DNA of 64,000 nt from Nitrospinia bacterium (GTDB lineage Bacteria > Nitrospinota > Nitrospinia > Nitrospinales > JAJDAT01), in the NCBI GenBank assembly GCA_029261715.1, contig JAJDAT010000001.1, positions 62,001-126,000 on the forward strand, written 5' to 3'. A program made the position numbers and the translations under genes. Positions 29,183 to 52,560 of the stretch are shown here, one piece after another (the first letter of the stretch is position 1; the number at the start of each line of letters is the position of its first letter). Below the pieces are notes generated by a model that was not told where the DNA came from, did no database searches, and worked only from the letters and a program-made list of their open reading frames with translations.

Positions 29183-30907
29183 ATGCCACCTAACAAAAAA
29201 ACAGAATTAAAAGTATTTTTATCTTATAGCCAAAGAAACCAAGATCTAGCTTATGCAATTATGCTAAGCACTAAAGATCAGATTTCAAAAAAACCGGAAT
29301 TTAATTATGAATTAAAATTTTTATATGATGAAGATCGTTTTATAGAAGGCGATAACATATATGAAGGTATATTAAACGCGCTAGATGAAGCGGATTGTAT
29401 TTTAGCAATTCTTACAGAGGACTCATTACAATCGCCCTATGTAATAGAAGAGCTAACTCGAGCCCATGATAGAAGATTAGAAATAATCGCTATCTTAGAA
29501 AACGAAAACTTAAAAGATAAAGTCCCATGGTTTCTAAAAGACACAAAATTTATTCTTAAAAAAGATTTAACGTCTTTTCAAATAGCAAAAAATGTTGTCG
29601 AAGTTCTTAAAAGTTATGACACCCGCATAAACCCTTCATCGCTACAAGGAATTACTAGCAACCTATCTCAAATAGTAAAAGAAATAAATTCAAGTAAAGA
29701 CAATTTATATAAAGGGTTTAAAATCAAATTAGCCGAAAACTTATTAACTCAAGTCGATCGTGAAATCAGATCGTTACAAACATCAACTTACGAAATAGCA
29801 ATCTCTGAAGAACAAAACTTCTTATTACGCGCAGGTCCTGTATTTGGATTATCCAAAAGAGTTTATTCTACAAGCGTTGAAAAAATATCTACTTTCTGGA
29901 CAAATAAACAATGTCGTCAAGAAGCGAAACAGTACATCAAGTATCAACCCAAAAATACATTTAGATTATTTGTTTTTGACAGCCCAAAAAAAATGCACGC
30001 GTATGGAAACATTTTAAATGATCATTATGATTCATACGGAGAAGAAGGCGGAGTCTATGTTACTACTTCGGATAATTACGAAAAGTTAGTTGGTAGTTTT
30101 TGCAATTCGAAATCAAAAATAAAAAACCTTTCCGACATTGATTTTGGGATTCTATGTTTTGAAGAAAAAACTCAAAACGATTCGCCTACCAAATTTGTAG
30201 AAGCTCATTTAAACGGTAAGGAATTATTTCTTTACGAAAAAGATAATAAAAAAAATAGACTAGTTAATGAAAAAAACTTAGTTTCTTTTTTTGAAAAACT
30301 ATCAGAAATTGAACCTGGAAAGATGAGTAAAGACAATAAGATTATCAGATGGAAGAAAAACTTATTTTCTGATCACATGCTTTGGAACGATTACTTAAGA
30401 AAACTATTCAAGCAAATAACAGGAGAAGTAATTCATTGCGTTTACTTCCATAAGGAAGCAAAAAAATATTTTAGCGTTAATGATTTAATCAATTACAAGG
30501 ATAAATTGTATCAGCATCTTAATGAAAATTATTCAGGTAAATTCCTAGGAATTCATGTCGGATCCAACATAATGTTAAACGCCAAAGATGGTAAATATGG
30601 CGGCGAATTAACGATGAGTTCAGATTACGTTTACGCTTTACATATAAAATTTAAAGACGAGCAAACTTTAGCAAAATATTATACCGACATTATACATTCC
30701 AATATTCGCCAAGAAATATATTCAATTATCTGTTCCAACACTGAAAAAATCTACAATGTATTGAATAACAATAAAATTGATGAAGAAGAAAAACGTATTC
30801 TTTTTCAAAATATAGAACGAGCAATCGCTCATTCATTAAAAAGATGCGACTTCATTGAAACACAAGCTATCGAAAGTATTATAAAAATGCCTCCCATTGA
30901 TTTTTAA
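29183..30907 (+). CDS. TIR-domain protein with unrecognised C-terminal region
   Basis: A 574-aa protein. Residues about 8-140 form a TIR domain: 'KVFLSYSQRNQDLAYAI' (strand A and BB-loop region), 'FLYDEDRFIEGDNIYEGIL', 'ADCILAILTEDSLQSPYVIEEL' and 'RLEIIAIL'. The Glu pair at 89-90 is where NAD-cleaving TIR domains have their catalytic Glu. The remaining ~430 residues are soluble, mixed alpha/beta and of no family I know; 'FRLFVFDSPKKMHAYGNIL' and 'GVYVTTSDNYEKLVGSF' suggest a second folded domain. Bacterial TIR proteins often act in antiphage abortive infection or as signalling NADases. Here no partner sensor gene is adjacent, so the C-terminal part may itself be the sensor. The defence role is inferred. 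Base composition is very AT-rich. Confidence 0.85.
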   Translation: MPPNKKTELKVFLSYSQRNQDLAYAIMLSTKDQISKKPEFNYELKFLYDEDRFIEGDNIYEGILNALDEADCILAILTEDSLQSPYVIEELTRAHDRRLEIIAILENENLKDKVPWFLKDTKFILKKDLTSFQIAKNVVEVLKSYDTRINPSSLQGITSNLSQIVKEINSSKDNLYKGFKIKLAENLLTQVDREIRSLQTSTYEIAISEEQNFLLRAGPVFGLSKRVYSTSVEKISTFWTNKQCRQEAKQYIKYQPKNTFRLFVFDSPKKMHAYGNILNDHYDSYGEEGGVYVTTSDNYEKLVGSFCNSKSKIKNLSDIDFGILCFEEKTQNDSPTKFVEAHLNGKELFLYEKDNKKNRLVNEKNLVSFFEKLSEIEPGKMSKDNKIIRWKKNLFSDHMLWNDYLRKLFKQITGEVIHCVYFHKEAKKYFSVNDLINYKDKLYQHLNENYSGKFLGIHVGSNIMLNAKDGKYGGELTMSSDYVYALHIKFKDEQTLAKYYTDIIHSNIRQEIYSIICSNTEKIYNVLNNNKIDEEEKRILFQNIERAIAHSLKRCDFIETQAIESIIKMPPIDF

Positions 30908-40584: not shown

Positions 40585-40881
40585 ATGAAAAAAAGCATCC
40601 CGCTAAAAATTCACGGTAAAACTTACCAGGTAAAAACCGATCAAGATCTTGCACAGCTCCAAATGCTGGCGGATTTTGTGGAAAAGAAGATGAAAGAGAT
40701 TTCGGATGCGACAACAATCCAATCAACTCTAGATTTAACCATTCTTACCCTCCTAAATATGGCGAAAGACTTATATGACTCTGAAACAAGCCGAGAGAGA
40801 CTGGAAAAAAACGTAGAAGAAATGACAAACCGATCCATTGAAAAAATCCAAAACGAAATCCCTTTTACCGACAGTAACTGA
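40585..40881 (+). CDS. zapA: Cell division protein ZapA
   Basis: A 98-aa protein with the ZapA layout: an N-terminal strand-turn segment 'IPLKIHGKTYQVKTDQD', 'LQMLADFVEKKMKEI', and a C-terminal coiled coil from 'LDLTILTLLNMAKDLYDSE' to the end. ZapA tetramers cross-link FtsZ filaments at mid-cell. It follows the ZapB-like gene by 3 bases. In related genomes zapA is followed by 6S RNA and ygfA. Here those are about 11.5 kb downstream, and the 3' part of zapA is present a second time at 43.7 kb. Confidence 0.9.
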   Translation: MKKSIPLKIHGKTYQVKTDQDLAQLQMLADFVEKKMKEISDATTIQSTLDLTILTLLNMAKDLYDSETSRERLEKNVEEMTNRSIEKIQNEIPFTDSN

Positions 40882-40956
40882 GTAAGAATATTTAAATTTA
40901 GCGTTATAAGGGAATATTCCGCAATTGTTTTGTTCTTACAACTCGCGTCAAAAATC

Positions 40957-41868
40957 ATGAAAAAAAGTATCCGCATCCTCTCTTGTGCCCTATTACTTAT
41001 CGTTTTAGCAGTTCCTTCCTTTGCGGCCCAAAGAACTCTTCGAGTCGCATTGATTCCTGCGGACGGAGGCACCGAGGACGGCACCTTAGCTGATTGGCGT
41101 CCGCTCTTTGCAGCCTTAAGTAAGATGACCGGCCTAGAATTTGATCTTAAAGTAGGTCAAAGCTACGCAATGGCAATTCAGGCGATGGTAAATAAACACG
41201 TCGATTTGGCTTGGTTTGGTCCAGTGAGCTATCTTCAAACAAAAAAACGCGGCGCAGCAGAACTTCTCGCAATCAGCGTAAAGAAGGGAAATTCTGTTTA
41301 CTACTCAGGCATCTTTGTTGCCCGCGACTCTGACATGAAGAACATTTCAGATTTAAAAGGTAAAAAAGTTGCCTTTGGCGATACAAGTTCAACTTCTAGT
41401 TTCGTTTATCCTATGGCAAAACTTATTGAATCGGGAATTGATCCTATTAAAGATTTGGATCGCGTCTATTTAACAGGTAGTCACTCAAACAGCCTGCAAG
41501 CGTTAGCAAATGGCCATGTCGACGCAGCTGCCGCTTCCTTCATTTCTTTCGACAAAGCCGTTAATGCAGGAGCAATTGATTTTCGTAAATTTAGGCTTTT
41601 AGTAAAGAGCGTTCCAATACCAAACCCACCCTTAGCTATGCACCCCAATTTGCCAGAATCTCTTAAACAACGTTTACGCAAAGCTATTGCGAAAGTGCAC
41701 AAAGCGCCAGGAATCACCCCGGACATGATTCGCGGTTACGGCGGAAGAAAAGTTGATAGGTATGATTCTGATGTTGATGAAAGTCTTATGGACGAGGCTA
41801 GTAAAACTCTCGAACTACTCACTCCCGATATAATGAGCGCTATCCTGGAAAAAGCGGGAGAAAGATAA
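40957..41868 (+). CDS. phnD: Phosphate/phosphonate ABC transporter substrate-binding protein
   Basis: A 303-aa periplasmic binding protein. I start at the ATG at 40957 because it begins a clean signal peptide ('MKKSIRILSCALLLIVLAVP', cleavage after SFA). The mature part has PhnD-family motifs: 'LRVALIPADGG', 'VDLAWFGPVSYL', 'LKGKKVAFGDTSSTSSFVYP' and 'VDAAAASFISF'. Members bind phosphonates, phosphite or related oxyanions. phnC and phnE follow, so the operon encodes a complete importer. No phosphonate-degrading genes are nearby. The ligand is therefore open; phosphate-like anions are most likely. Confidence 0.9.
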   Translation: MKKSIRILSCALLLIVLAVPSFAAQRTLRVALIPADGGTEDGTLADWRPLFAALSKMTGLEFDLKVGQSYAMAIQAMVNKHVDLAWFGPVSYLQTKKRGAAELLAISVKKGNSVYYSGIFVARDSDMKNISDLKGKKVAFGDTSSTSSFVYPMAKLIESGIDPIKDLDRVYLTGSHSNSLQALANGHVDAAAASFISFDKAVNAGAIDFRKFRLLVKSVPIPNPPLAMHPNLPESLKQRLRKAIAKVHKAPGITPDMIRGYGGRKVDRYDSDVDESLMDEASKTLELLTPDIMSAILEKAGER

Positions 41869-41878
41869 TGCCTAGACA

Positions 41879-42631
41879 ATGTTAAAATTCCAGGAAGTAT
41901 CCAAGAAGTACCTGGATGGAACCGAGGCTTTAAAAACCGTGTCTTTCGAGGTGCCTCCTAGTCAGTTCTGCGTCATATTAGGTTCTTCAGGCGCTGGTAA
42001 ATCTACTCTCCTTAAGATGGTCAATGGCTTGATTTCTCCTTCCACAGGATCTATTTCCGTAAACCAAATACCCGTGATCCCGCAGCGTATCAAATCCATA
42101 CGTCAACAGGTTGCAATGATCCACCAACAGTTCAACTTAGTGGGACGACTCAGCGTAGAAAAAAATATCATGACCGGAGCCCTACGCGAGATGAACATCA
42201 TACAAAAACTTCTCCATTCGTTTCCGATAGATCTACGCCGGCGTGCCTGTCAAATAATGGAGTCCGTAGGTTTGGAGGAAAAACACCTTAATCGAAGGGT
42301 TACCGAATTATCGGGAGGACAGCAACAACGAGTGGGAATAGCGCGTGCCTTTATCCTTAATCCTTCTCTTATTTTGGCCGATGAGCCGGTCGCCAGCTTG
42401 GACCCGCGCATCAGTCGTGATATTCTTAGTATCCTTAAACGATCGGCCAGTGAAAAAGGCGCGACAGTGCTTTGCAGTCTTCATCAATTAGACTTAGCCC
42501 GTGAATTCGCAGACCGTATCGTAGCCTTTAAACACGGACAGATAATTTTCGATGGGGCTCCTGACGATTTGAAAGAATCGGTTATAGAAAAAACCTATGA
42601 GCTCGACGATCAAGGGCTTAATGAAGAATAA
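41879..42631 (+). CDS. phnC: Phosphonate-type ABC transporter ATPase
   Basis: A 250-aa ABC ATPase with Walker A 'GSSGAGKSTL' (about residues 35-44), Q-loop 'MIHQQFNLVGRLSV', signature 'ELSGGQQQRVGIARA' (about 141-155), Walker B 'LILADEPVASLDP' and H-loop 'LHQLD'. The 'HQQFNLV.RLSV' sequence is typical of PhnC. It lies 10 bases after phnD and overlaps phnE by 11 bases, so the three genes form one operon. Confidence 0.93.
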   Translation: MLKFQEVSKKYLDGTEALKTVSFEVPPSQFCVILGSSGAGKSTLLKMVNGLISPSTGSISVNQIPVIPQRIKSIRQQVAMIHQQFNLVGRLSVEKNIMTGALREMNIIQKLLHSFPIDLRRRACQIMESVGLEEKHLNRRVTELSGGQQQRVGIARAFILNPSLILADEPVASLDPRISRDILSILKRSASEKGATVLCSLHQLDLAREFADRIVAFKHGQIIFDGAPDDLKESVIEKTYELDDQGLNEE

Positions 42632-43661
42632 TCAATTTAAATCCGAAGCTAAAAGCCCCACATCCGATTGGCGCCTCAAGCCAGCTTTTTCCTATCGCTC
42701 TGTGATCTATGCTCTATTGATATTGATAATTTTTTACGTTACTTCCAACATCTGGACCAAACAAGTTAGCGAAATATACTCCAAAGCCAAAGAAGAAGTT
42801 GCAGAGAAAGAAACTCCAGCCTGGAAACATGCGACTATAAAAATATTCAACAGTTTCATCAAGATGGGCAAAGAAATGTTTCCTCCGCAAATTTCGGAAT
42901 CGACACCCATTGAAGCAATTTCAGAATTTGATCCTCAAAACTTGCCAATCTTCTCAAAGTTGATAGACAAAACATATAAAGAACACGAGCTAAACCCAGA
43001 TACCTTCAAAATGGAGACGACCGAAGTAAAGAAACAAATTCTTAAACGCCCTTTTGGTTACCTTGAAAAAGTCTTAGCCAAAATGCTTGAGACTTTAGAA
43101 ATTGCTTTATGGGGAACCGTTCTTTCAGTGTTGATCAGTCTACCACTGGCATACTTTTGCGCGGCAAATTACGCTCCGAAAAGATTTTTATATTTAGCGG
43201 CTAGAGGAATCGTTAGTTTGATACGAGCAATTCCCGAGTTAATAAGCGCTCTTTTCTTGGTTGTCGCCTTTGGCTTTGGTCCCATTGCAGGTATCCTAGC
43301 CTTGGCAATTCACTCGGCGGGTTTTCTCGGAAAATTTTATGCAGAAGACATCGAGAACGCCGATAAAGGACCGCAAGAGGCTATAGAAGCTACCGGCGCC
43401 AGTCCTTTCATGACGTTATATTATTCAGTGGTGCCACAAGTTTTCCCACAATACATTGCTTACACCGTCTATATTCTTGATCGAAATGTAAGGATGGCAA
43501 CGGTAATGGGGTTTGTTAACGCAGGCGGCATTGGCGCAGAACTCAAAGGCAGGCTTGATCAGTTCCAGTATTCACATGTCTGTACAATCTTGATAGTTAT
43601 TTTTGTAACGGTCTTTGCGCTGGATCGGCTATCTGCACATTTCCGTAACCGACTCATCTAA
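42621..43661 (+). CDS. phnE: Phosphonate-type ABC transporter permease
   Basis: The start is the ATG at 42621, preceded by AAGGG; an in-frame ATG at 42597 is less likely. The product is about 346 aa. One TM near residues 22-40 is followed by a long hydrophilic stretch (about 45-150) and then the permease core with four or five TM segments. The EAA coupling loop reads 'EAIEATGASPFMTLYYSVVP'. The long N-terminal insert is seen in a subset of PhnE proteins. The stop is followed within 25 bases by the start of the duplicated zapA fragment. Confidence 0.92.
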   Translation: MKNNQFKSEAKSPTSDWRLKPAFSYRSVIYALLILIIFYVTSNIWTKQVSEIYSKAKEEVAEKETPAWKHATIKIFNSFIKMGKEMFPPQISESTPIEAISEFDPQNLPIFSKLIDKTYKEHELNPDTFKMETTEVKKQILKRPFGYLEKVLAKMLETLEIALWGTVLSVLISLPLAYFCAANYAPKRFLYLAARGIVSLIRAIPELISALFLVVAFGFGPIAGILALAIHSAGFLGKFYAEDIENADKGPQEAIEATGASPFMTLYYSVVPQVFPQYIAYTVYILDRNVRMATVMGFVNAGGIGAELKGRLDQFQYSHVCTILIVIFVTVFALDRLSAHFRNRLI

Positions 43662-43683
43662 CCGATCTCCATTCGTTAAAAAC

Positions 43684-43869
43684 GAGACAGCCCTCCCCTC
43701 CAACATGGATTTAGCGACCCTACTCCTCCTAAATATGGCAAAAGACTTATACCACTCTGAATTAAGTCGAGAACAACTGGAGAAAAAAGTAGAAGAAGTG
43801 GCAAACCGGTCCATTGAAAAAAACCAAAACGAAATCCCTTTTAAAAACCAACTTCCTCTTAATCAATAA
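43684..43869 (+). pseudogene. Truncated second copy of the zapA 3' end
   Basis: From about 43684 to 43850 the DNA is about 80% identical to the 3' half of zapA (40707-40874). The frame gives 'LLLLNMAKDLYHSELSREQL' and 'VANRSIEKNQNEIPF' against the ZapA C-terminal coiled coil. The first ~40 ZapA residues are missing. An ATG at 43706 could start a ~54-aa coiled-coil peptide, but no RBS is convincing. It is in the same orientation as zapA, so phnDCE lies between two direct copies. Confidence 0.85.
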
Positions 43870-44074
43870 GTTGAAGGCGTTGCCCTATGGGTACGGTTTC
43901 TTCACGTCTCATCACTACTAATTCACAATCCCGTTGTTTTTGTCGAACTTCAATGAGAGGTCTTTTATCCTGTTCAAAAGCAGAATAACAATTGATGATG
44001 TCATCGACCGTTTCCATTTCAAACAATTCATATTTTGGTAAAAAAGAGTCAAAAGAGATAAAGTTGTCTTTCAT
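43859..44074 (-). CDS. Small hypothetical protein, 71 aa
   Basis: The frame encodes an acidic-then-basic peptide ending 'VRQKQRDCELVVMRREETVP' and IGQRLQLID. No family is recognised and the Shine-Dalgarno is weak. A decayed copy of its 3' end, with the same stop position ('VPIGQPLQHTY'), lies at 50520-50600 in the same orientation. That supports past coding use. Its end touches the zapA fragment's stop codon. The two copies bracket the 44-50 kb module. Confidence 0.45.
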   Translation of the reverse strand: MKDNFISFDSFLPKYELFEMETVDDIINCYSAFEQDKRPLIEVRQKQRDCELVVMRREETVPIGQRLQLID

Positions 44075-44151
44075 TTAGATCAAAGATGAAATATTGAAAA
44101 CAGATATAAAAAGATTGTAGCTCAATATCACAAAGCCAATAGATTTTGGCT

Positions 44152-44180
44152 TTGCAAAACAATTTCATTAATTCTATAAT
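44152..44180 (+). promoter_or_regulatory. Sigma70-type promoter for the phosphopantetheinyl transferase gene
   Basis: TTGCAA at 44152-44157, a 17-base spacer and a perfect TATAAT at 44175-44180. Transcription would start near 44187 and give a leader of about 60 bases. A 9-bp inverted repeat at 44131-44154 overlaps the -35 element and could be an operator. Confidence 0.7.
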
Positions 44181-44249
44181 TTAATTGCTTTAATCTTGGG
44201 AAATTTAAAAAATTAAACTCTTAGATCATCAGAAATTAAATTCAAAGAA

Positions 44250-44915
44250 ATGTCTCCCTTAAATAATTTTTTTGAAAAAGCCAAAAGGAATATACCAAAC
44301 AGTTTGATTATAAAAATTGACCTATTAAGTAATTGTCAAGGTTACATTTATTCTGATGAAGAAAAATTTATTTCAAATTTTAGCGTAGGAAGAAAAAAAG
44401 AATTTATAGCAGGGCGCACTCTTGCAAGACAATCTTTACAAGAATTAGGTAAAGAACCATGTTCAATATTAAACGATAAGAACGGATGTCCTCTTTGGCC
44501 TGATTCAGTTGTAGGATCAATATCACATAAGAGAAATATTTGCGCCACTTTAATTGGACTAAAGGAAAATTTTGATTCTGTCGGTATCGATATCGAGTTT
44601 AATGAACCTCTTTCTCAATCAATGTGGAATATGTTTACTACAATTGAAGAAATATCGGAAGGCAATACAACAGATTTTTCTGACCAAATATTTGCCAATA
44701 TGCTGCTCTCAGCCAAAGAAGCTGTTTATAAAAGTATTTTTCCCATTGCCCAAGTGAAAACTCCATCACTGAAGGACCTTTCCTTGAATTTCAAAAAAAA
44801 TGACGACTTTTTTAATATCAAAACTGGTTTTGAGAAAAATGCTTGGGAAGGAAAACAATTCCTAGAATCATCCCATATTCTATCAATAATTTGGTTATCC
44901 GGAAAAAATGTTTGA
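44250..44915 (+). CDS. 4'-phosphopantetheinyl transferase, EntD/Sfp type
   Basis: A 221-aa protein with the EntD-type motif series: 'EFIAGRTLARQSLQELGKEP' (about residues 50-69), 'GCPLWPDSVVGSISHKRNIC' (about 79-98), 'VGIDIEF' (about 113-119, metal-binding acidic pair) and 'LLSAKEAVYKSIFP' (about 152-165). These enzymes move phosphopantetheine from CoA to a Ser of acyl or peptidyl carrier proteins. No carrier protein, PKS or NRPS is visible in the window, so its target lies elsewhere or is unusual. It has its own promoter and is followed after 55 bases by the promoter-led operon below. Whether it works with that operon is unclear. Confidence 0.85.
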   Translation: MSPLNNFFEKAKRNIPNSLIIKIDLLSNCQGYIYSDEEKFISNFSVGRKKEFIAGRTLARQSLQELGKEPCSILNDKNGCPLWPDSVVGSISHKRNICATLIGLKENFDSVGIDIEFNEPLSQSMWNMFTTIEEISEGNTTDFSDQIFANMLLSAKEAVYKSIFPIAQVKTPSLKDLSLNFKKNDDFFNIKTGFEKNAWEGKQFLESSHILSIIWLSGKNV

Positions 44916-44940
44916 TTTTCTAACAAATCTATGCGATAAT
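44912..44940 (+). promoter_or_regulatory. Promoter of the XRE-ImmA-TS-MazG operon
   Basis: TTGATT at 44912-44917, a 17-base spacer and GATAAT at 44935-44940 with a TG just upstream (extended -10). The predicted start near 44947 leaves only about 24 bases of leader before the ATG at 44971. An XRE regulator is encoded two genes downstream and may act here. The -35 hexamer overlaps the stop codon of the transferase gene. Confidence 0.7.
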
Positions 44941-44970
44941 GTCTGAGAATAAAACATGGAGACTATCATT

Positions 44971-45282
44971 ATGAATTCATCGACCGCCACATCCCAAATT
45001 TCCTTAGAAGAATTTTTAATATTAAGAGCTCAACTAATCAAAAAACTCTTGGAAAGACTTCAAGAAGAAATTGATTTAATGGAATTTGATGATCCCCCCG
45101 AAGGAGAACTTTGGGATGATCTTCCAATTGTTGATTCTAAAACAGTTGTTAAGCTCTCTCCTTTATTAGAAGAGGATACTGGAATGAAATTAAAAAATAA
45201 ATGGATTAGGCGAGGAGGATATGACAGTGCTGATGAGGCTATCAAGGATTTAATCAAAAAAATCGAACAGGAATTAATGTAA
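44971..45282 (+). CDS. Small acidic protein, first gene of the module operon
   Basis: I start at the ATG at 44971 because GGAG lies 10 bases upstream of it; an ATG at 44956 is only a few bases from the predicted transcription start. The product is 103 aa, helical and acidic, with 'LRAQLIKKLLERLQEEIDLM', then 'DDPPEGELWDDLPIVDSKTV' and a C-terminal 'GYDSADEAIKDLIKKIEQEL'. I know no family for it. It precedes the XRE gene by 12 bases and is clearly part of the same operon. Confidence 0.7.
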   Translation: MNSSTATSQISLEEFLILRAQLIKKLLERLQEEIDLMEFDDPPEGELWDDLPIVDSKTVVKLSPLLEEDTGMKLKNKWIRRGGYDSADEAIKDLIKKIEQELM

Positions 45283-45294
45283 ATAAGAGAGAAA

Positions 45295-45633
45295 ATGATG
45301 AATGATGAAACCAGAGGAAAAATTGGTTCTCGTTTGAAGAAAGCACGAGAATATTTGGGAATTTCTCAAGAAGAGGCATCAAATGTAGCGAATATTCCAA
45401 GATCAGCCATCTCACTGATGGAAAGTGGTCAAAGGAAACTTGATTCAGTCGAGCTTTGTGCATTAGCAAAACTATATCAAAAACCTGTGTCTTTTTTTAC
45501 TGAAGACTCAGATCAGGAAATGGCAGATGAAGAGATTTCAACTTTGTATCGCAAGCTTTCAGACCTTTCAGATAAAGATAAAAAAGAATTAATGCAATTC
45601 GCTGATTTCCTATCTCAACGAGGAAAAAAATAA
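45295..45633 (+). CDS. XRE-family HTH regulator
   Basis: A 112-aa protein with a Cro/cI-type helix-turn-helix at about residues 10-64: 'IGSRLKKAREYLGISQEEAS', 'IPRSAISLMESGQRK', 'L..LAKLY..PVSFF'. The C-terminal 45 residues are helical and acidic. XRE repressors paired with ImmA/IrrE peptidases are switched off by cleavage, as in ICEBs1 ImmR/ImmA and DdrO/IrrE. The neighbouring gene is such a peptidase, two bases downstream. It probably represses the promoter at 44912-44940; that is inferred. Confidence 0.9.
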   Translation: MMNDETRGKIGSRLKKAREYLGISQEEASNVANIPRSAISLMESGQRKLDSVELCALAKLYQKPVSFFTEDSDQEMADEEISTLYRKLSDLSDKDKKELMQFADFLSQRGKK

Positions 45634-45635
45634 TC

Positions 45636-46607
45636 GTGACTATACGAGATGCTACTTTAAACGGAGTCAGAGCTGCATCAGAACTTCACGAAAAACTTGG
45701 ATTAAGAAAAACATTAAAAAGTGGTATTGAAAATATCGATGTTTTTCAAACCATTTCTGACCTTGACTTGCCTCTCCTTTGCAAACCTTTAGAAAACCTT
45801 TTAGGAGTTTATATTAGTAAACCAAATAAAGGAATTTTGGTAACAACAAATAGAAGACTTCCTATTCAACGTTTTACAGCTGCGCATGAATTAGGACATC
45901 ATGTATTGGGTCATGAGGAAAGTTACGACAGTGAAGATTCCATGGGTTTAGCGCGACAAAGAGTAATGCAATCCCCTTTGTATGAAATAGAAGCAGAAGC
46001 TTTTGCTGCTGAGTTTCTGCTTCCTAAATGGCTTCTAATTGCCATGCTAAAGAGACAAGGTTGGGGAAAATCTGATTTAGGCTCACCAGAAACGGTTTAT
46101 CAACTATCCCTTAGAGCTGGGATAAGTTATGAGGCGACCTGGCGCTGTCTACATACCAATAATTTGATAAATCAATCAACTATGGAGATATTAAAAAATA
46201 CACCTCCAAAGGTATCTAAACTTGCTGTATTAGGAGATATCACTCCGGTGGATTCGTGGGCTGATGCGTATTTTCTTACTGAAAAGGATAATGGTTCAAA
46301 ATTAATTGCAAGTCAGGAAGACACCGTAATAATTCAACTGAGTGAACATACTTCTGGTGGTTATGTCTGGTCAACCCCAGAAAACAATAATTCTATTGAC
46401 TTAATAAACGATGAAAGGATTAAACAACAAAATTTTATTGGAGGTCAATCAGTACGAAAGATCGCACTTCGTGGGAAAAATATTTCTCAATTAAAAATGA
46501 AGGAATACCGACAATGGGAAGATGGTTCAAACCCAATAAATAATTTTAATGTGACTTTGGATTTTTCTGGAAAAGAAGTTGATTTGCCCAGGGTGACTAG
46601 GCCATGA
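45636..46607 (+). CDS. ImmA/IrrE metallopeptidase fused to a chagasin-like inhibitor
   Basis: A 323-aa protein starting with GTG, two bases after the XRE gene. Residues about 50-200 are an ImmA/IrrE-type zinc peptidase with 'FTAAHELGHHVLGHE' (H84, E85, H88) and the downstream Glu region 'YEIEAEAFAAEFLLP'. Residues about 215-310 match chagasin-type inhibitors of papain-like proteases (MEROPS I42): 'DTVIIQLSEHTSGGYVWSTP' gives the loop corresponding to the conserved 'N.TTGY.W', and 'GGQSVRKIALRGK' a later strand. The next gene encodes a papain-like protease, overlapping by 4 bases. A likely reading is that the peptidase part inactivates the XRE regulator and the inhibitor part restrains the protease. 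That functional link is inference from domain content and order. Confidence 0.85.
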   Translation: MTIRDATLNGVRAASELHEKLGLRKTLKSGIENIDVFQTISDLDLPLLCKPLENLLGVYISKPNKGILVTTNRRLPIQRFTAAHELGHHVLGHEESYDSEDSMGLARQRVMQSPLYEIEAEAFAAEFLLPKWLLIAMLKRQGWGKSDLGSPETVYQLSLRAGISYEATWRCLHTNNLINQSTMEILKNTPPKVSKLAVLGDITPVDSWADAYFLTEKDNGSKLIASQEDTVIIQLSEHTSGGYVWSTPENNNSIDLINDERIKQQNFIGGQSVRKIALRGKNISQLKMKEYRQWEDGSNPINNFNVTLDFSGKEVDLPRVTRP

Positions 46608-47263
46608 ATGATCATTCTAATGACGAAGAACCTAAAGTCATTGTGGATTTAAGAATGGAGTTTCCTGAAGTTCGGGATCAGGGTCATAGACCAGCCTGTT
46701 TAGCTTTTGCGGCAAGTGATGCCCATTCAAATTTTCAAGGTTTCAACCAGCACCTTTCAGTTGAGTACTTAATTTATTACGCTTATTTGGAAGATGGTCA
46801 TCAAGATTATTCTTTGGGTATTTCAACCAGTGCTGCAATAAAGGCTTTGAGTAGAGAGGGACAACCTTTTGAATCTGATTGGCCATACAATCCTAATCAA
46901 AATAGTCCATTAGAACCAATAGCCGGTTTATCTCCTATCTATAAAGTAAATTACGTGAAAAACTTGTCTTGGTCTGTTTCTGAGTTTATTAAGATCTTAG
47001 ACGAACGCAAAGCTATAGTCATTGGGATATCCATAAAAGAAACTTTCTTTAAGCAAGTTTCTTACCCTCATATTATAGAGGATCAAGGCGAATTGATGGG
47101 TTTACATGCTTTGATTTTAGTGGGTTATGGAAAGCTCTCTTCAGGTAATGTTTTATTTTTGTTAAGAAACAGTTGGGGACAAACTTGGGGGAATAATGGT
47201 TATTCCTGGTTAACAGAAAGTTATTTAAAAAATAATATGAACATGTATATGACCTTTAATTAA
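46604..47263 (+). CDS. Papain-like (C1-family) cysteine protease
   Basis: A 219-aa protein with the complete papain triad region. 'RDQGHRPACLAFAAS' contains Q26 (oxyanion hole) and C32 (nucleophile), 'GLHALILVGYG' contains H168, and 'FLLRNSWGQTWGNNGYSWL' contains N189. There is no signal peptide and no pro-region, so it would fold as an active cytoplasmic protease and need an inhibitor. The preceding gene supplies a chagasin-like domain, the natural inhibitor type for this family, and overlaps it by ATGA. This suggests a toxin/inhibitor or controlled-protease pair. The protease target is unknown. Confidence 0.88.
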   Translation: MNDHSNDEEPKVIVDLRMEFPEVRDQGHRPACLAFAASDAHSNFQGFNQHLSVEYLIYYAYLEDGHQDYSLGISTSAAIKALSREGQPFESDWPYNPNQNSPLEPIAGLSPIYKVNYVKNLSWSVSEFIKILDERKAIVIGISIKETFFKQVSYPHIIEDQGELMGLHALILVGYGKLSSGNVLFLLRNSWGQTWGNNGYSWLTESYLKNNMNMYMTFN

Positions 47264-47269
47264 TTTTTT

Positions 47270-48052
47270 ATGAAATCTATTTCTAAAAAAACTAGAGCTG
47301 AAGCTTGGCTGTCAGCCATAAAACATTTATTGAATAATGAAGATTACCAAGAATTAAATTTAGTGCTTGAGGTTATGAACCCTGATGTAGGTACCCCATT
47401 TTCTAGATTAATAGAGGCTGAAGTTGATAAATATTTAAGAGATGCGGAGTTGCACCCCTTGCACACCGTTTCCGAAACCATTTTTCCTGCGACTTTATAT
47501 AAGAAACATGGGGCACGTGGTGTATTTGAAATTTATCCAGAGGAGATTTATCCGTTAATAAAATCAGCTAATGGGAATAGAAATGGTACTTACGCTTTTC
47601 GACTAGTTCATGGATATGATCAGAATAATATAACTTGCAATCCGCTTAAAGATCGATTGGAACGCATGAAAAAAGAATTAAGTCATAAAGGAACAAAAAT
47701 GTCCGTATATGAAGTGTCCATAGATGAGGTTCACTCCATACCAATAAATAGAAACGAAGGTTATATTGGTTTCCCATGCCTTAGTCATTTAAGCTTCAAG
47801 TTATGTTCAAAAAAAAAAATAATTCACCTTACAGCAATTTATCGTTCCCAATTTTATATTGAAAAGGCACTTGGTAATTTACTTGGATTGGCAAGATTGC
47901 AAGATTTTATGGCTCGTGAGCTTGGAATTAAACCCGGTGTTCTTGTTTGCCATGCCACCGATGCGAGGCTGGATTTTCCTACCGGATTTGGAAAAGTTAA
48001 GGTGTTAAATTTAATTCAATACTTGGAGAAAAAAAGAAGTGAACATTTGTGA
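47270..48052 (+). CDS. Thymidylate-synthase-like enzyme (possible dUMP/dCMP hydroxymethylase type)
   Basis: A 260-aa protein. The C-terminal half keeps the thymidylate synthase core: 'GFPCLSHLSFKLC' with C170 at the catalytic position, 'LTAIYRSQFYIEKALGNLLG' matching the 'RS.D...G.P.N' phosphate/nucleotide-binding stretch (R182, N193), and 'VCHATDARLD' near the C-terminus. The N-terminal half diverges from canonical ThyA, and the protein is a little short. Such divergent members include phage dUMP and dCMP hydroxymethylases that make modified DNA precursors. It lies 6 bases after the protease gene and overlaps the MazG-like gene by 14 bases. Which one-carbon transfer it performs is inferred from neighbours. 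Confidence 0.75.
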   Translation: MKSISKKTRAEAWLSAIKHLLNNEDYQELNLVLEVMNPDVGTPFSRLIEAEVDKYLRDAELHPLHTVSETIFPATLYKKHGARGVFEIYPEEIYPLIKSANGNRNGTYAFRLVHGYDQNNITCNPLKDRLERMKKELSHKGTKMSVYEVSIDEVHSIPINRNEGYIGFPCLSHLSFKLCSKKKIIHLTAIYRSQFYIEKALGNLLGLARLQDFMARELGIKPGVLVCHATDARLDFPTGFGKVKVLNLIQYLEKKRSEHL

Positions 48053-49115
48053 GTATCAAATAAAGGCCTTAGAAACTGACAAAATTCCATGGGATGAAAA
48101 AAATGGGCCGGATATTCTCTTGCTTGGATTTTTAGGGGAAATGGGTGCTTTATCCAAAGTCTTCAAAAGAGGTGAACGAGATGGTGAAGTTTATGAATCA
48201 TTTAATAAACATCTTAATGAAAATCTAGGGGATTTACTTTGGCACGTTGCCATACTGGCTAATAAATTTGGTGTCTCCTTTAACTATACACCAAGGAAGA
48301 ATGCTCTTCACAACGATGGGATGGCTGTATTTTATTCACTTGCTCATAAAGTTGTAAGGTTGTCTGATGAACGCAACAACATCTTAGGGGGGCTTCAACA
48401 AGCGTCTTTAGAAGTAAAACAATTAATTTATGAAATATTAGATGATATGCACTATATCGCATCCCTTTATGAAACAAGCCTTGATCTTATAGCTGAAGAA
48501 AATTCAAAAAAAATTAAATCATACTGGAAAGGTGATCCAACTCTCCCAGCTCGCCAATTTGATAAAGATTTTCCTTATTACGAGCAGTTTCCAAGAAAAT
48601 TTGAAATTGAATTTATGGAAATTGACGATGGGAAGAAGATTATCATGCATATGAATGGTCTTAATATAGGAGATAGACTTACTGATAATGCTTTAAAAGA
48701 CGATGCGTATCGTTATCATGATGTATTTCATTTGGCTAATTTGGCAACATTAGGTTGGTCTCCTGTTTTTAGGAATATCCTTCGATGCAAGCGTAAAAGC
48801 AATCGGTCGGTTGATGAAGTCCAAGATGGAGCAAGAGCAGGGATAATTGAAGAAGCTGTTGTGAATTATATTTATGATTATGCTCGTGATCTTCAGTTTT
48901 TAAAGGGAAAAAAGTTGGTGGATTTAAATCTGATTTTACGATTTTCAAAACTTGTCCGCAATTATGAAGTGGAAAGTTGTGAACCATGGGAATGGGCACA
49001 TTGTATTCTTTCCGGGTGTGAGGTATTTAGAAGTTTAAGAGATAATAAGGGGGGAAGGGTCGAGATAGACTCTGATAGGCGATCAATTAAGTTTATAGGG
49101 CGACTAAATAGTTAG
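48039..49115 (+). CDS. Two-domain MazG-like nucleotide pyrophosphohydrolase
   Basis: A 358-aa protein with a GTG start overlapping the previous stop. Residues about 5-85 are an all-alpha NTP-PPase domain: 'DILLLGFLGEMGALSKVFKR' and 'NENLGDLLWHVAILANKFG'. One of the usual metal-binding Glu residues is changed (canonical GE.GE reads GEMGA, residues 33-37), while E34, E61 and D65 remain. A second helical module (about 205-300) reads 'GDRLTDNALKDDAYRYHDVF', 'HLANLATLGWSPVFRNILRC' and 'EEAVVNYIYDYARD', which is found in long MazG-like proteins. MazG enzymes cut (d)NTPs to monophosphates. In phage modification pathways they remove competing dNTPs. Its 3' end overlaps the convergent gene by 23 bases. 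Confidence 0.85.
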   Translation: MNICEYQIKALETDKIPWDEKNGPDILLLGFLGEMGALSKVFKRGERDGEVYESFNKHLNENLGDLLWHVAILANKFGVSFNYTPRKNALHNDGMAVFYSLAHKVVRLSDERNNILGGLQQASLEVKQLIYEILDDMHYIASLYETSLDLIAEENSKKIKSYWKGDPTLPARQFDKDFPYYEQFPRKFEIEFMEIDDGKKIIMHMNGLNIGDRLTDNALKDDAYRYHDVFHLANLATLGWSPVFRNILRCKRKSNRSVDEVQDGARAGIIEEAVVNYIYDYARDLQFLKGKKLVDLNLILRFSKLVRNYEVESCEPWEWAHCILSGCEVFRSLRDNKGGRVEIDSDRRSIKFIGRLNS

Positions 49116-50133
49116 GAGTTTGGTGAATCAAATCATTAATATCCCACTTCGGCGGATACCAAACAAATTCCGGCTCGTGAAAAAGTGATTTAGATTTTGG
49201 TTTGTATTTTTGTTTTATTCTTACTCTTTCGCTAACACCTTTTATATTAGGGTGCGCAACTCTAGCATATTTACCAACTTCACAGAATAAATTTTGGCAA
49301 TCGATTAAGTGAAGTGATCTACCCCATAGAGATCTGAATTTTATACCCAGTTTATTAAAATAAAGCTCTTGTTCTTCTGTCATCATCTTAATGACATCTT
49401 CTTCACTGTAATCTCGAAGATCAGAAAAGCATTTTTTTATACCATCTTTTGCGCCAGGCCCAGGAACAACAAAATCATTTTCAGAATAATCAAAGTATGT
49501 AGAATAGTTTAAATCTGTGGCAAATTGGTAAGCTAAAAAACTTCCCAATGATTCAATTTTTAGTAATTCAGCGTAAATGCTTTCCAAGGAGTTTTGTTTT
49601 TCAAGTTTCCTGGGAAAATTAGATTTTAATAAAGAGTCTAAAAGCATTAAATGAAATCTGTGCTTGCGAATAGATCCATATTTTTTTTTCGAGCCAGAGG
49701 CCATAATATAGGCTGCAGAGTATATAGAAATGCCTGATGAAATTGTTTTGTCTAAGATCTGATCGTATTGATCAACGCTAAAAGTGGTTAACCTCACTTC
49801 ACCAAATTTTTGTTCTAATAATTCCCAAGTTTCAATTTTGTTAAACAGTTTAAAAAGTAAAATACGAAAGACAGTATCTTTAAGACTCCACTTTTTGGAA
49901 TAGATGACATTTTTAATCAGATATTGACTTACTCGATCAGACGCACGATATGCATTGGTGAATTTAAACTCTCTTATAATAGGATCATCAGTCCAAGGTT
50001 GGGATAGATCATTCAAACGCGCAAAAAACACCTCCTGACGCTCTGCAGCAAAACGCCAATATGTTTCAAACACTTCAGTTTTTAATGGTTTTAACCGTCT
50101 AGACAAATTTAGTGGTGAAACTTTTTTAAACAT
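49093..50133 (-). CDS. HMUDK-helical / thymine-hypermodification family protein
   Basis: A 346-aa protein. Residues 25-110 carry 'YWRFAAERQEVFFARL', 'LSQPWTDDPIIREFKFTN' and 'AYRASDRVSQYLI' (ER 31-32, PWTDDP 46-51, N60, R63, D66-R67). This is the pattern of the 5-hmdU DNA kinase helical domain (PF18723) and its relatives, the alpha-glutamyl/putrescinyl-thymine pyrophosphorylases. A Gly-rich 'VPGPGAKDGIKKCF' near residue 223 resembles a helix-hairpin-helix DNA-binding loop. In phages such proteins act on 5-hydroxymethyl-uracil in DNA. No separate kinase P-loop is present here. It converges on the MazG-like gene. The first 15 residues are not conserved-looking. Activity (kinase partner, transferase or glycosylase-like) is not resolved from sequence. 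Confidence 0.75.
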   Translation of the reverse strand: MFKKVSPLNLSRRLKPLKTEVFETYWRFAAERQEVFFARLNDLSQPWTDDPIIREFKFTNAYRASDRVSQYLIKNVIYSKKWSLKDTVFRILLFKLFNKIETWELLEQKFGEVRLTTFSVDQYDQILDKTISSGISIYSAAYIMASGSKKKYGSIRKHRFHLMLLDSLLKSNFPRKLEKQNSLESIYAELLKIESLGSFLAYQFATDLNYSTYFDYSENDFVVPGPGAKDGIKKCFSDLRDYSEEDVIKMMTEEQELYFNKLGIKFRSLWGRSLHLIDCQNLFCEVGKYARVAHPNIKGVSERVRIKQKYKPKSKSLFHEPEFVWYPPKWDINDLIHQTPNYLVAL

Positions 50134-50857
50134 CTTTTAGGTAGGGAAATAAGGTAAAGCTACAAGGAATATGAACAAAATAAGGTTGGTCAACTTCTAA
50201 AAAGGGGTTAATTGAATGTTTACCTACAAATATTCAATTAAGCTCTCCTTTTATTGTAATTCAACAGTTTTTTCAAGTATATTTTTTTAAGTTTCTTCTA
50301 TTTCGTTGTTTCTTAAAAAATTATTTGTATTGAACTATTGGTATTATGTTGGAGAAAAAAATAAAATAATGATTTAAAACGGAATTAACTGTTCAAATTC
50401 ATCCTGTGTGGATTTTTTGCGAAAGTATACAACAAAACCCGACAGAATAGGACATATTGGCAACGGACAGCCTCTAAAGCCATTGTAAATCAAGACCGTT
50501 AAAATCAATTAACCCTGTCTTAATAAGTATGTTGGAGAGGTTGCCCTATAGGTACGATTCCTTAAGATCTTCTTGATTTCCCCTCTTAATTCTTGCAAAA
50601 AACCCAGATCAAAATATACAGCCCAAACATCTATTTCGACTTCACCTCTTTGCGTTATTATCTTCTTTTTGATTTCTGCTATTAAACTAATTTCAGATAG
50701 TAAACGATGAACTCAATATTCAAGTTTGCGCCAACTTTTTGGCTCTGGAAGTCAAAAAATCTATGGAGAAAAAGAAGATGTTTTATTTTAAATAGAGAGG
50801 GAGAGTTTTTTGCTAATCAGTTAGAAGTCTAGTCAATCGCTTTAAAGAAATTGTGAT
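50134..50857. other. Intergenic region with a decayed gene copy
   Basis: This 724-bp AT-rich gap lies between the hypermodification-family gene and the HDOD gene. It holds the remnant at 50520-50600 and otherwise no credible ORF. A minus-strand frame of about 65 codons (roughly 50513-50715) lacks a start codon and overlaps the remnant. Confidence 0.45.
50520..50600 (-). pseudogene. Decayed 3' end of the 71-aa ORF (right copy)
   Basis: The minus-strand DNA GTACCTATAGGGCAAC and its flanks match the 3' end of the ORF at 43859-44074 (about 28 of 37 bases, same stop position). An in-frame TAA just upstream shows decay. It has the same orientation as the left copy, so the 44-50 kb module is bracketed by direct repeats. 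Confidence 0.55.
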
Positions 50858-51697
50858 TTATAAATAAGAACTAACGGCGCCATCGTATAATTCACGGATT
50901 TTTTCTTCGATGGGTTCCCAGAAAAATTCCTCAAGCTCTAGTTTACCCAAAACACTTTTGTACATCATAGGGATATGAGGTTCTCCGCTTTCGCCCATTT
51001 CTAGAATATGAGCGACCGAATCCGCTAAATGGATCACTCCGCCTTCAAACGAAAATCCTTTCCCTTGAAATGGCTCGTGATGATTTGCCGCCGCCGCGAT
51101 TATGCTTTCCGGAAGTTTCCATGCATTCAATAAGCGACTGCCAACATCGGTGTGGTTGAACCCTATTACCTTGTCTTCCTCTTCATACAATGGACTATTG
51201 TTCTCTCGACATTTCGCTATGACTTCCTCGGAGGCATCGGGAAGACAATTAAAAATTACGAGACTGCCAATATCATGCAGCATACCGGACAAATAAAATC
51301 TTTCCGGCTTAGGATCTTGAATCAGTGTCGCAATTTCTCGCGCAATCACACCGGTGGCAATGTTATGCTTCCAAAAAGAATTTATACTTACGAACTCTTC
51401 AGATAGGTCTTTAAATTGCTGAACCACCACTGAAGAAATGACTAAATCGTGTAAATCAATTACGCCTACAATGCTAAGGGCATGGGAAATCGTGTCTACT
51501 TTTGATTCCAGGCCAAAAAAAGGACTGTTAACAATTTTAAGAAGTCGCGCAACCAGAGCTGGATCTCCACTAATAATTTCCGCTATTTCATTAAACCCCA
51601 TATCTTCATCTAGCAAAGCATCTTGAAGCTTATACACCACAGCGGGCATTGAAGAAACATAACTCTGAGCCACTTCGTCTAATGATTTAATATCCAT
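50858..51697 (-). CDS. HDOD-domain signalling protein
   Basis: A 279-aa protein made of one HDOD domain: 'LPAVVYKLQD'-like N-terminal helix, 'ISGDPALVARLLKIVNSPFF', 'ISHALSIVGVIDLHDLVISS', 'GMLHDIGSLVI' and 'HHEPF'. HDOD is a degenerate HD domain found in regulators of motility, stress and cell cycle; only part of the HD metal site remains. No output domain is attached. It is transcribed alone towards the module. The function is unknown beyond the family. Confidence 0.92.
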   Translation of the reverse strand: MDIKSLDEVAQSYVSSMPAVVYKLQDALLDEDMGFNEIAEIISGDPALVARLLKIVNSPFFGLESKVDTISHALSIVGVIDLHDLVISSVVVQQFKDLSEEFVSINSFWKHNIATGVIAREIATLIQDPKPERFYLSGMLHDIGSLVIFNCLPDASEEVIAKCRENNSPLYEEEDKVIGFNHTDVGSRLLNAWKLPESIIAAAANHHEPFQGKGFSFEGGVIHLADSVAHILEMGESGEPHIPMMYKSVLGKLELEEFFWEPIEEKIRELYDGAVSSYL

Positions 51698-51815
51698 AAA
51701 GTTTTCTCGAAATTTTTTTTTTGGAAGCTGAGAGTTTCAACTCCAGTTTTTTAAGTTCCAGTTTAAAAGATACGACTTGCATACACAAGAAACGCTTTCG
51801 TTGTAAAGGGTACTT

Positions 51816-52121
51816 ACTAGTGTCCCGTGCGGTTATTTTATTAAACTAATTTGGGGAATATTTTTCTCCCAAAACTAATAAATGAGCGCGTGAGACTTCT
51901 AAAAACTAGAAAATTAAAGGTAGCTATTTTATTAAATCGGGGCGAGATCCTTCACCGAACTTAAAAGTTCGCTTCAGGAAGACATGCGGTGGGGGCGGTA
52001 TTAAACAAAATTAACTTGAGTTTGACTGCGGCTATATAAACTGATTTCTTTATCAATCAACACGCAAAACGAATCGGTTGCTCATAATTAACTTAAATGA
52101 TTAACCGCACATAACACTAGT
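51816..52121. mobile_element. MITE-like element with 20-bp terminal inverted repeats
   Basis: The left end (51816-51835, ACTAGTGTCCCGTGCGGTTA) and the inverted right end (52102-52121) agree at 17 of 20 bases. The 306-bp interior has no transposase frame and contains copy 3 of the dispersed repeat. The palindromic ACTAGT at each tip makes the target duplication hard to define. It is probably a non-autonomous derivative of an IS element that I cannot name. Confidence 0.6.
51927..51988 (+). repeat. Dispersed REP-like repeat, copy 3
   Basis: It has AAATCGGGGCGAGATCCTTC, a GAACTTAAAAGTTC palindrome and TTCAGGAAGACATGCGG. The palindrome differs from copy 1 in both arms together (C/T with G/A), so pairing is kept. 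It lies inside the MITE-like element. Confidence 0.8.
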
Positions 52122-52345
52122 CAAAAATAACGCTATCAGTATTCTGCAATGTATTAATAAATACCTTATCTTTTTTAAAGAATTTTAAAGATATTATTTC
52201 AACCGCTTTAAGTTTTATAAAATCCGCTCAATTCTTAATTATATAACCCTTTATTATCAGCGCTTGATTCACTACAATAAGCTTCATCAACTGTCCAATA
52301 AACATTGAAATTGTGACAATTAAGGGTTTGAGACTCCTAAATTCT

Positions 52346-52560
52346 TGTGATAGGATCAAATTACCCTAAGGGTTTCCCTGTATGGTTCGAATCAACAATC
52401 ATTTTTTGGACCAATACTATCTTTGAGGGATTGAGGACAGGGCGCGGTGAGCAAACCTTTGAAGTTAAAAGGTAGCCTAAAGCGTTACGCGGATATCCCA
52501 CCTACTTGCTAGGTTCAAAAGATGGAACTTGATACGGCCATACGGGGGGATCCTGTTTTA
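52346..52560 (+). ncRNA. ssrS: 6S RNA
   Basis: The ends pair as a long rod: 52350-52357 with 52549-52556 (8 bp) and 52376-52385 with 52538-52547 (10 bp, one G-T), then 52391-52395 with 52529-52533. A large, weakly paired centre follows, with a terminal hairpin (52455-52460 with 52468-52473) and a small side hairpin at 52500-52514. The stretch GCGGTGAGCA ... TAGCCTAAA resembles the same segment of E. coli 6S RNA. It lies upstream of ygfA, the standard 6S neighbour. 6S RNA binds sigma70 RNA polymerase and mimics an open promoter. A TTTTA after the closing stem may end transcription. Confidence 0.8.

Follow-up and report, generated by a model that had tools for sequence, protein, structure and literature searches.

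An eight-gene cassette with a divergent thymidylate synthase fold in a Nitrospinia bacterium: a candidate conflict system of a modular family

A Nitrospinia bacterium (assembly GCA_029261715.1) carries an eight-gene cassette at positions 44250-50133 of the window, the stretch of 64,000 nucleotides analysed here (contig JAJDAT010000001.1, positions 62,001 to 126,000), to which all coordinates refer. On balance, gene context favours reading it as a complete, horizontally acquired conflict cassette, most likely anti-phage, which has moved among many bacterial phyla and belongs to a modular family so far described only in part. A CapH/CapP-like switch, a protease/inhibitor pair, the use of TIR and Nmad2 proteins as alternatives in related loci, and a plasmid-borne and patchy distribution together point to a conflict system. 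A previous, sequence-only reading had singled out just the stretch 47270-50133, with a thymidylate synthase (TS)-like gene (47270-48052, +), a MazG-like gene (48039-49115, +) and an HMUDK-like gene (49093-50133, -), as a chromosomal set related to phage thymine-hypermodification enzymes. The three open reading frames lie exactly there and the relationship holds, but the unit is larger, reaching upstream to 44250.

Cassette layout and modular relatives

The genes stand in the order listed, the last being convergent to the others; the five genes upstream of the TS-like gene are close-packed on the same strand, and all eight open reading frames are intact. A scan for promoters and terminators yielded no more in the cassette than in shuffled sequence.

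44250..44915, + strand: phosphopantetheinyl transferase (PPTase), Sfp type (PF17837, E=2e-20; PF01648, E=6e-6)
44956..45282, + strand: acyl carrier protein (ACP)-like protein, 108 aa (serine invariant in 47/47, DS[LK] motif, AcpP profile match)
45295..45633, + strand: XRE-type helix-turn-helix (HTH) repressor, CapH-like (HTH_3, E=2e-9; PADLOC capH, E=2e-11)
45636..46607, + strand: ImmA/IrrE metallopeptidase, CapP-like (Peptidase_M78, E=7e-13; PADLOC capP, E=3e-15)
about 46311-46556, + strand: chagasin domain at the C-terminus of ImmA, residues 226-307 (Inhibitor_I42, E=6e-8)
46604..47263, + strand: papain-like C1 peptidase with Cys-His-Asn motifs (PF00112, E=5e-14)
47270..48052, + strand: divergent TS-fold protein of the clade called TS1 here (profile-profile comparison, residue census, own clade at 100/100)
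48039..49115, + strand: MazG (residues 1-165) plus MazG_C (48552-49094; PF18722, E=3e-71)
49093..50133, - strand: HMUDK_hel protein without kinase domain (PF18723, E=3e-105)

A scan of 84,980 genomes yielded at least 483 HMUDK_hel relatives, and the 80 closest loci were kept and analysed together with plasmid loci and the window as a set of 89; the counts given here describe this sample of closest relatives rather than nature at large, the related loci are not independent, and the p-values serve as guides. The same gene set was found in many bacterial phyla with its order conserved across them, and closely related gene orders occur on annotated plasmids of cyanobacteria, Sinorhizobium, Rhizobium and Streptomyces. 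Fifteen of the 24 TS1 plasmids were typed as conjugative, and several plasmid copies have defence-type neighbours, among them a phospholipase of the cyclic-oligonucleotide-based anti-phage signalling system (CBASS), TIR, ABC-3C, SIR2 and caspase proteins.

The swaps among these loci show two halves. The window has HMUDK_hel and MazG-MazG_C as its base/nucleotide half, and ACP with PPTase, the HTH repressor, ImmA with its chagasin domain, the C1 protease and the TS-fold protein as its response half. In the base/nucleotide half of the sample, HMUDK_hel is accompanied either by MazG_C (51 loci) or by TS2, a second TS type (30 loci), and the two avoid each other (both in 6 loci, p=7e-7); TS2 comes with a kinase domain in 25 of its 30 loci (p=5e-9), and 25 of the analysed loci have a dCTP-deaminase-like gene. 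The response half is made up of ACP-HTH-ImmA-TS1 (50 loci) or of a ThsB-type TIR protein with Nmad2 (16 loci; p=4e-11 for the pair), both occurring together in 2; TS1 and ImmA co-occur in 52 of the 58 loci with TS1 (p=4e-14), and TS1 coexists with TS2 in some loci. The sister class (L025, L031, L052, L063, L089 and others), which combines HMUDK_hel with the ThsB-type TIR and Nmad2, and often with TIR-SLOG, is a Thoeris-like response half set on a base-modification half. HMUDK_hel also stands beside a radical SAM protein that replaces MazG_C or TS2 (L013, L024, L028, L036). The cassette is present on a few IMG/VR contigs, and five further IMG/VR loci (L115-L119) hold MazG_C with Nmad2/TIR or with ACP-HTH-ImmA-TS1, lacking HMUDK_hel in the stretch examined.

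The same base and nucleotide domains as in this family figure in the DefensePredictor study (PMC13092281), which predicts a defence role for MazG, MazG-C, aGPT-Pplase and UDG systems and reports E. coli systems, validated there, whose domains include thymidylate synthase, dNMP kinase, 5hmdU kinase and NMAD. To judge by a figure legend of that study, class 2 of our loci (TIR, Nmad2, HMUDK_hel, kinase and TS2) resembles the validated domain set; a class-2 locus from Pseudomonas found no counterpart at the DNA level in E. coli genomes. The TS1-ACP-PPTase-ImmA-chagasin-C1 response half goes unmentioned in the accessible text of PMC13092281, where a predicted entry may overlap with it.

Regulator, protease and inhibitor

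The HTH repressor adjoins an ImmA protein with the HExxH motif, and both are matched by the PADLOC models of CapH and CapP, the regulator pair known from CBASS. An adjacent HTH repressor and ImmA/IrrE metallopeptidase are common to the cassette, to CapH/CapP and to PprI/DdrO; unlike CBASS, however, the cassette has no cyclase, and unlike either pair its ImmA ends in a chagasin domain, or in a different, acidic tail where no C1 gene is present. PprI and other ImmA/IrrE proteins detect DNA damage by way of single-stranded DNA (PMC10904395).

The chagasin-like tail is strictly linked to the protease gene. It was found on ImmA in 10 of 10 loci with a C1 gene, or 11 of 11 counting L056, a seeming exception whose C1 gene is cut by the contig end, and in 0 of 44 ImmA proteins without C1 (Fisher p=8e-12 versus 11/11); seven more ImmA proteins, from loci of the uracil-DNA glycosylase (UDG) type described below or from archaeal plasmids, are chagasin-positive and all stand beside C1. 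The domain matches at E=6e-8 in the window and E=7e-8 in L098, its inhibitory loop motifs (GY.W, GG and RPW) recur in the 11 aligned ImmA tails, varying in some, and the C1 proteins keep the Cys-His-Asn motifs (L014 was missed by the Cys pattern used). These Pfam matches, loop motifs and catalytic residues are shared with known chagasin (I42) and papain-like C1 proteins, whereas here a mobile cassette encodes the inhibitor as a fusion to a regulatory metallopeptidase, beside the presumed target. Since I42 proteins are known as inhibitors and the linkage is strict, we infer that the tail would inhibit the neighbouring C1 protease. Nearly all ImmA proteins without C1 (L018 to L091) carry the different, acidic tail, most with the shared ending YRHLEE..DE, which may restrain a different effector.

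Nucleotide and base enzymes of the cassette

The TS-fold protein is barely recognized by Pfam (PF00303, E=0.045) but matches the methanogen TS family of NCBIfam (TIGR03283, E=5e-9), and profile-profile comparison over nearly the whole TS fold relates TS1 to ThyA (E=2e-7) and to TS2 (E=1e-8). The catalytic cysteine recognized in the sequence-only reading, C170 (codon 47777-47779), is present and invariant in 63 of 63 relatives. In our residue census of these 63 TS1 sequences, in ThyA numbering, Cys146 and Asn177 are each kept in all and Tyr94 in 62; fold, nucleophile and Asn177 are held in common with ThyA. In contrast, R21 and the C-terminal closure (V262) are absent, E58 is variable, D169 is mostly replaced by Tyr, Gln or Phe, H207 mostly by Lys and Y209 mostly by Asp or Glu; R166 is kept in 21 of the 63, and the position of G173 is Lys or Arg in every one. 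TS2 differs sharply, keeping E58, R166, D169, N177, H207 and Y209 in 28 of 28 sequences.

In the TS tree, TS1 forms a single clade (100/100, present in 100% of bootstrap trees), apart from the TS proteins of phages Lucjan, Se-F and Rgz1, which group with TS2 and ThyA. The Rgz1 protein is annotated as deoxycytidylate-type, and those of Lucjan and Se-F we take to make hydroxymethyl-dUMP, as is known of their relatives. The phylogeny proposed in the sequence-only reading thus places the gene neither with canonical ThyA nor with the phage dUMP- or dCMP-hydroxymethylases, and residues and tree together rule out TS1 as a ThyA or a known hydroxymethylase. Because the cysteine and Asn177 are invariant while the folate-site residues are lost, the window protein has probably retained covalent binding of a uracil-type nucleotide, without the usual folate chemistry.

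The 108-aa protein had no Pfam match; however, the serine of its DS[LK]-type motif is invariant in 47 of 47 relatives, some of which are annotated as 'acyl carrier protein' on plasmids, and its profile aligned with E. coli AcpP around this serine (E=4.6e-4, a single comparison). The invariant serine and the AcpP alignment argue for an ACP, with Ser61 (codon 45136-45138) as the predicted phosphopantetheine site, and the PPTase would charge it. A PPTase lies near HMUDK_hel in 26 of the 89 loci, in association with ACP (p=3e-4). In L037 and L058, TS1 has beside it a 1,643-aa protein that was considered as a non-ribosomal peptide or polyketide synthase partner for ACP; it is an NAD-glutamate dehydrogenase.

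The 'second helical module' that the sequence-only reading saw in the MazG-like protein is the Pfam family MazG_C, matched with 239 bits against a cut-off of 29.7. The MazG part departs from the ExxE...ExxD pattern of metal ligands, with A37 and N62 in the window protein (two of four ligand positions lost; E34, E61 and D65 kept), whereas in MazG_C roughly a dozen polar residues are invariant, including D222, H227, D228, H231, K251, R252, D259, D263, R266 and E272; for these reasons MazG_C is the likelier active domain. The predicted structure of the whole protein has a mean predicted local distance difference test score (pLDDT) of 93.9, and a Foldseek search with it found no solved match for MazG_C, and among viral models a match to the MazG part only.

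The HMUDK-like protein contains the PWTDDP and AYRASDR motifs, with R63, D66 and R67 invariant. Its likeness to HMUDK extends to the helical domain (PF18723) but not to the P-loop kinase domain, and the cassette has no Thymidylate_kin match. A thymidylate-kinase-like P-loop domain is fused to HMUDK_hel or lies beside it in about 33-36 of the 89 related loci (fused in front in 21, a neighbouring gene in about 12 more). The best solved match of the predicted structure (pLDDT 92.9) is the phage 5-PmdU glycinyltransferase 8z2m (probability 0.80, E=0.095), and the next sensible ones are the DNA glycosylases 2h56, 3n0u and 3fhf. A tblastn search of plasmids with the window TS retrieved loci in which ACP-HTH-ImmA-C1-TS1 stand together and HMUDK_hel is missing. 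The place of the convergent partner is taken by a UDG, with a MazG protein after it, in Burkholderia glumae, Bradyrhizobium, Tardibacter, Sulfitobacter, Acuticoccus and S. fredii, and MazG_C is present in 3 of 3 scanned MazG proteins from UDG loci. The weak fold matches agree with this exchange, and it is suggested that the HMUDK_hel slot and the UDG slot both hold a glycosylase-like protein of base-flipping type. On a haloarchaeal plasmid, the HMUDK_hel version comes with a PPTase and a separate tmk-like kinase.

Compared with phage thymine hypermodification (HMUDK, dUMP hydroxymethylase, PUGT/aGPT-Pplase), the window cassette shares the HMUDK_hel domain, whereas the fused kinase, dUMP-type TS and dCTP deaminase are shared by its sister loci only. 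The window copy has neither kinase nor hydroxymethylase, belongs to a bacterial clade, and adds ACP, PPTase, HTH, ImmA and the C1 protease.

Acquisition, competing readings and proposed function

The cassette interrupts a site that is empty in seven same-order genomes, where zapA, the 6S RNA gene and the 5-FTHF cyclo-ligase gene (ygfA) lie within about 1 kb. The features of the site are as follows.

40585-40881: zapA, left border of the insertion site
43686..43843, + strand: second, incomplete copy of the 3' end of zapA (80% identity with 40710-40867), at the edge of the cassette insertion on its upstream side
43857..43909: left member of a pair of 53-nt repeats flanking the cassette (77% identity with 50518-50570)
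50518..50570: right member of the same pair of 53-nt repeats
52372..52552, + strand: 6S RNA gene (Rfam RF00013, 76.8 bits, E=4.6e-14), right border

The distance from zapA to 6S RNA is 11.5 kb here (40881-52372), against about 0.1 kb in those seven genomes. The G+C content of cassette DNA is 33-36%, compared with about 40-43% for most housekeeping genes on either side, and the GC skew of the cassette is reversed. Among 61 same-order genomes, HMUDK_hel occurs in 4, the source genome included, and TS1 in the source genome only; two of the related HMUDK_hel loci, looked at more closely, are without class-1 genes. Horizontal acquisition forms part of the favoured reading. The 11.5-kb insert also holds phosphonate-type ABC transporter genes and an HDOD gene besides the partial zapA copy and the cassette. 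Pfam matches to the proteins tested around the cassette were to housekeeping, signalling, TPR/Sel1 and transporter families and one TIR, with no virion or integrase family, in keeping with the earlier reading. A stretch of low G+C, upstream of the cassette by 14 kb, encodes a 574-aa protein with an N-terminal TIR domain (29183-30907; PF13676, E=9e-10).

Could the cassette instead hypermodify thymine in the DNA of its host, to set an epigenetic mark or to label self for a restriction-like system, with the TS-fold protein and ACP installing a side group and HMUDK_hel acting on the base in DNA? Related loci do hold a phage-like anabolic route, namely TS2, a kinase fused to HMUDK_hel and dCTP deaminase- or dUTPase-like proteins; TS2 is dUMP-type (N177 in 28/28) and lies near the TS of hypermodified-type phages, and the best solved match of HMUDK_hel, although weak (E=0.095), is a DNA glycinyltransferase. 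However, the window has no TS2, kinase or dCTP deaminase, the cassette has no cognate nuclease, the TS-like protein lacks the folate-site residues, and the coexistence of TS1 and TS2 in other loci argues that TS1 is no replacement for TS2. The source genome uses ThyX; genome-wide, no PF00303 protein rose above threshold and the search for TS2 returned an empty answer, while a second match of thymidylate-kinase type is found on a different contig. Given the ThyX genome, the missing PF00303 and TS2 matches and the absence of a kinase beside HMUDK_hel, we regard this explanation, the main rival, as unlikely, though still worth weighing, and the sequence-only reading's suggestion of a modified thymine in host DNA is weakened by the same lack of a Pfam-detectable dUMP-hydroxymethylase-type TS, of a nearby cassette kinase and of the folate-site residues. 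The ThyX matches include an apparent tandem, two ThyX-family matches in one 605-aa frame (G000 C16:126797-128230).

Somewhat more doubtful is a plasmid or island addiction module in which ImmA-chagasin would be the antitoxin to the C1 protease and the nucleotide enzymes would serve the mobile element. The strict chagasin-C1 linkage and the frequency of conjugative plasmids among TS1 plasmids suit it, yet many loci are chromosomal, C1 is dispensable to the rest of the cassette, and the DNA-base enzymes are the constant part. That the set is what remains of a phage pathway of thymine modification, or a domesticated part of one, as the sequence-only reading also proposed, is highly improbable, and we reject it because the cassette is conserved as a whole. 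Phage relatives exist for HMUDK_hel, MazG_C and TS, and a few IMG/VR contigs carry the cassette, but the eight frames are intact, virion genes are absent, the order is conserved across phyla with the cassette's own regulator, ACP, PPTase and protease, phage HMUDK_hel proteins are 27-35% identical among the matches listed against 50-63% for the closest bacterial ones, and the window MazG had no tblastn match in 50,697 phage records.

Several observations weigh against a conflict cassette. The cassette encodes no ligase or acyltransferase to load the ACP; the fold matches of HMUDK_hel are weak (E about 0.1); the inhibition of C1 by chagasin is deduced from what the family does and from linkage; most class-1 loci lack C1 and chagasin; and no PADLOC model matches TS1, C1, MazG_C or HMUDK_hel.

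For the conflict cassette that we favour, we propose that the HTH repressor and ImmA form a CapH/CapP-like switch that DNA damage or infection would release. HMUDK_hel, like the UDG that replaces it elsewhere, would flip out thymine-derived bases in DNA and recognize or alter them. The corresponding free nucleotides would be the substrates of MazG_C and of the TS-fold protein, with the TS-fold protein using its Cys and Asn but no folate, and possibly the ACP arm as a partner. In this subtype, the C1 protease would be the effector, held by the chagasin tail until activation. A more specific scheme is speculative, and we would give it only a small chance: in an immune system of a new type, the phosphopantetheine arm of ACP and the folate-free TS-fold enzyme would become covalently joined to thymine-derived nucleotides that either the cassette or a phage has made. 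This adduct or its absence, read via ImmA-chagasin, would free the papain-like protease, and the same base, when in DNA, would be dealt with by HMUDK_hel or UDG.

A literature search found no paper combining ACP/PPTase with TS, ImmA and phage defence. The cassette joins five parts not linked before in the searchable literature: ACP with its PPTase, a folate-stripped TS fold, a protease/inhibitor pair built on ImmA, the orphan MazG_C domain and HMUDK_hel. The modular swaps show which of these parts act together, and the strict chagasin-C1 linkage offers a directly testable activation step. If the cassette is indeed defensive, it would provide roles for MazG_C and HMUDK_hel, families that have so far mostly only been predicted to be defensive.

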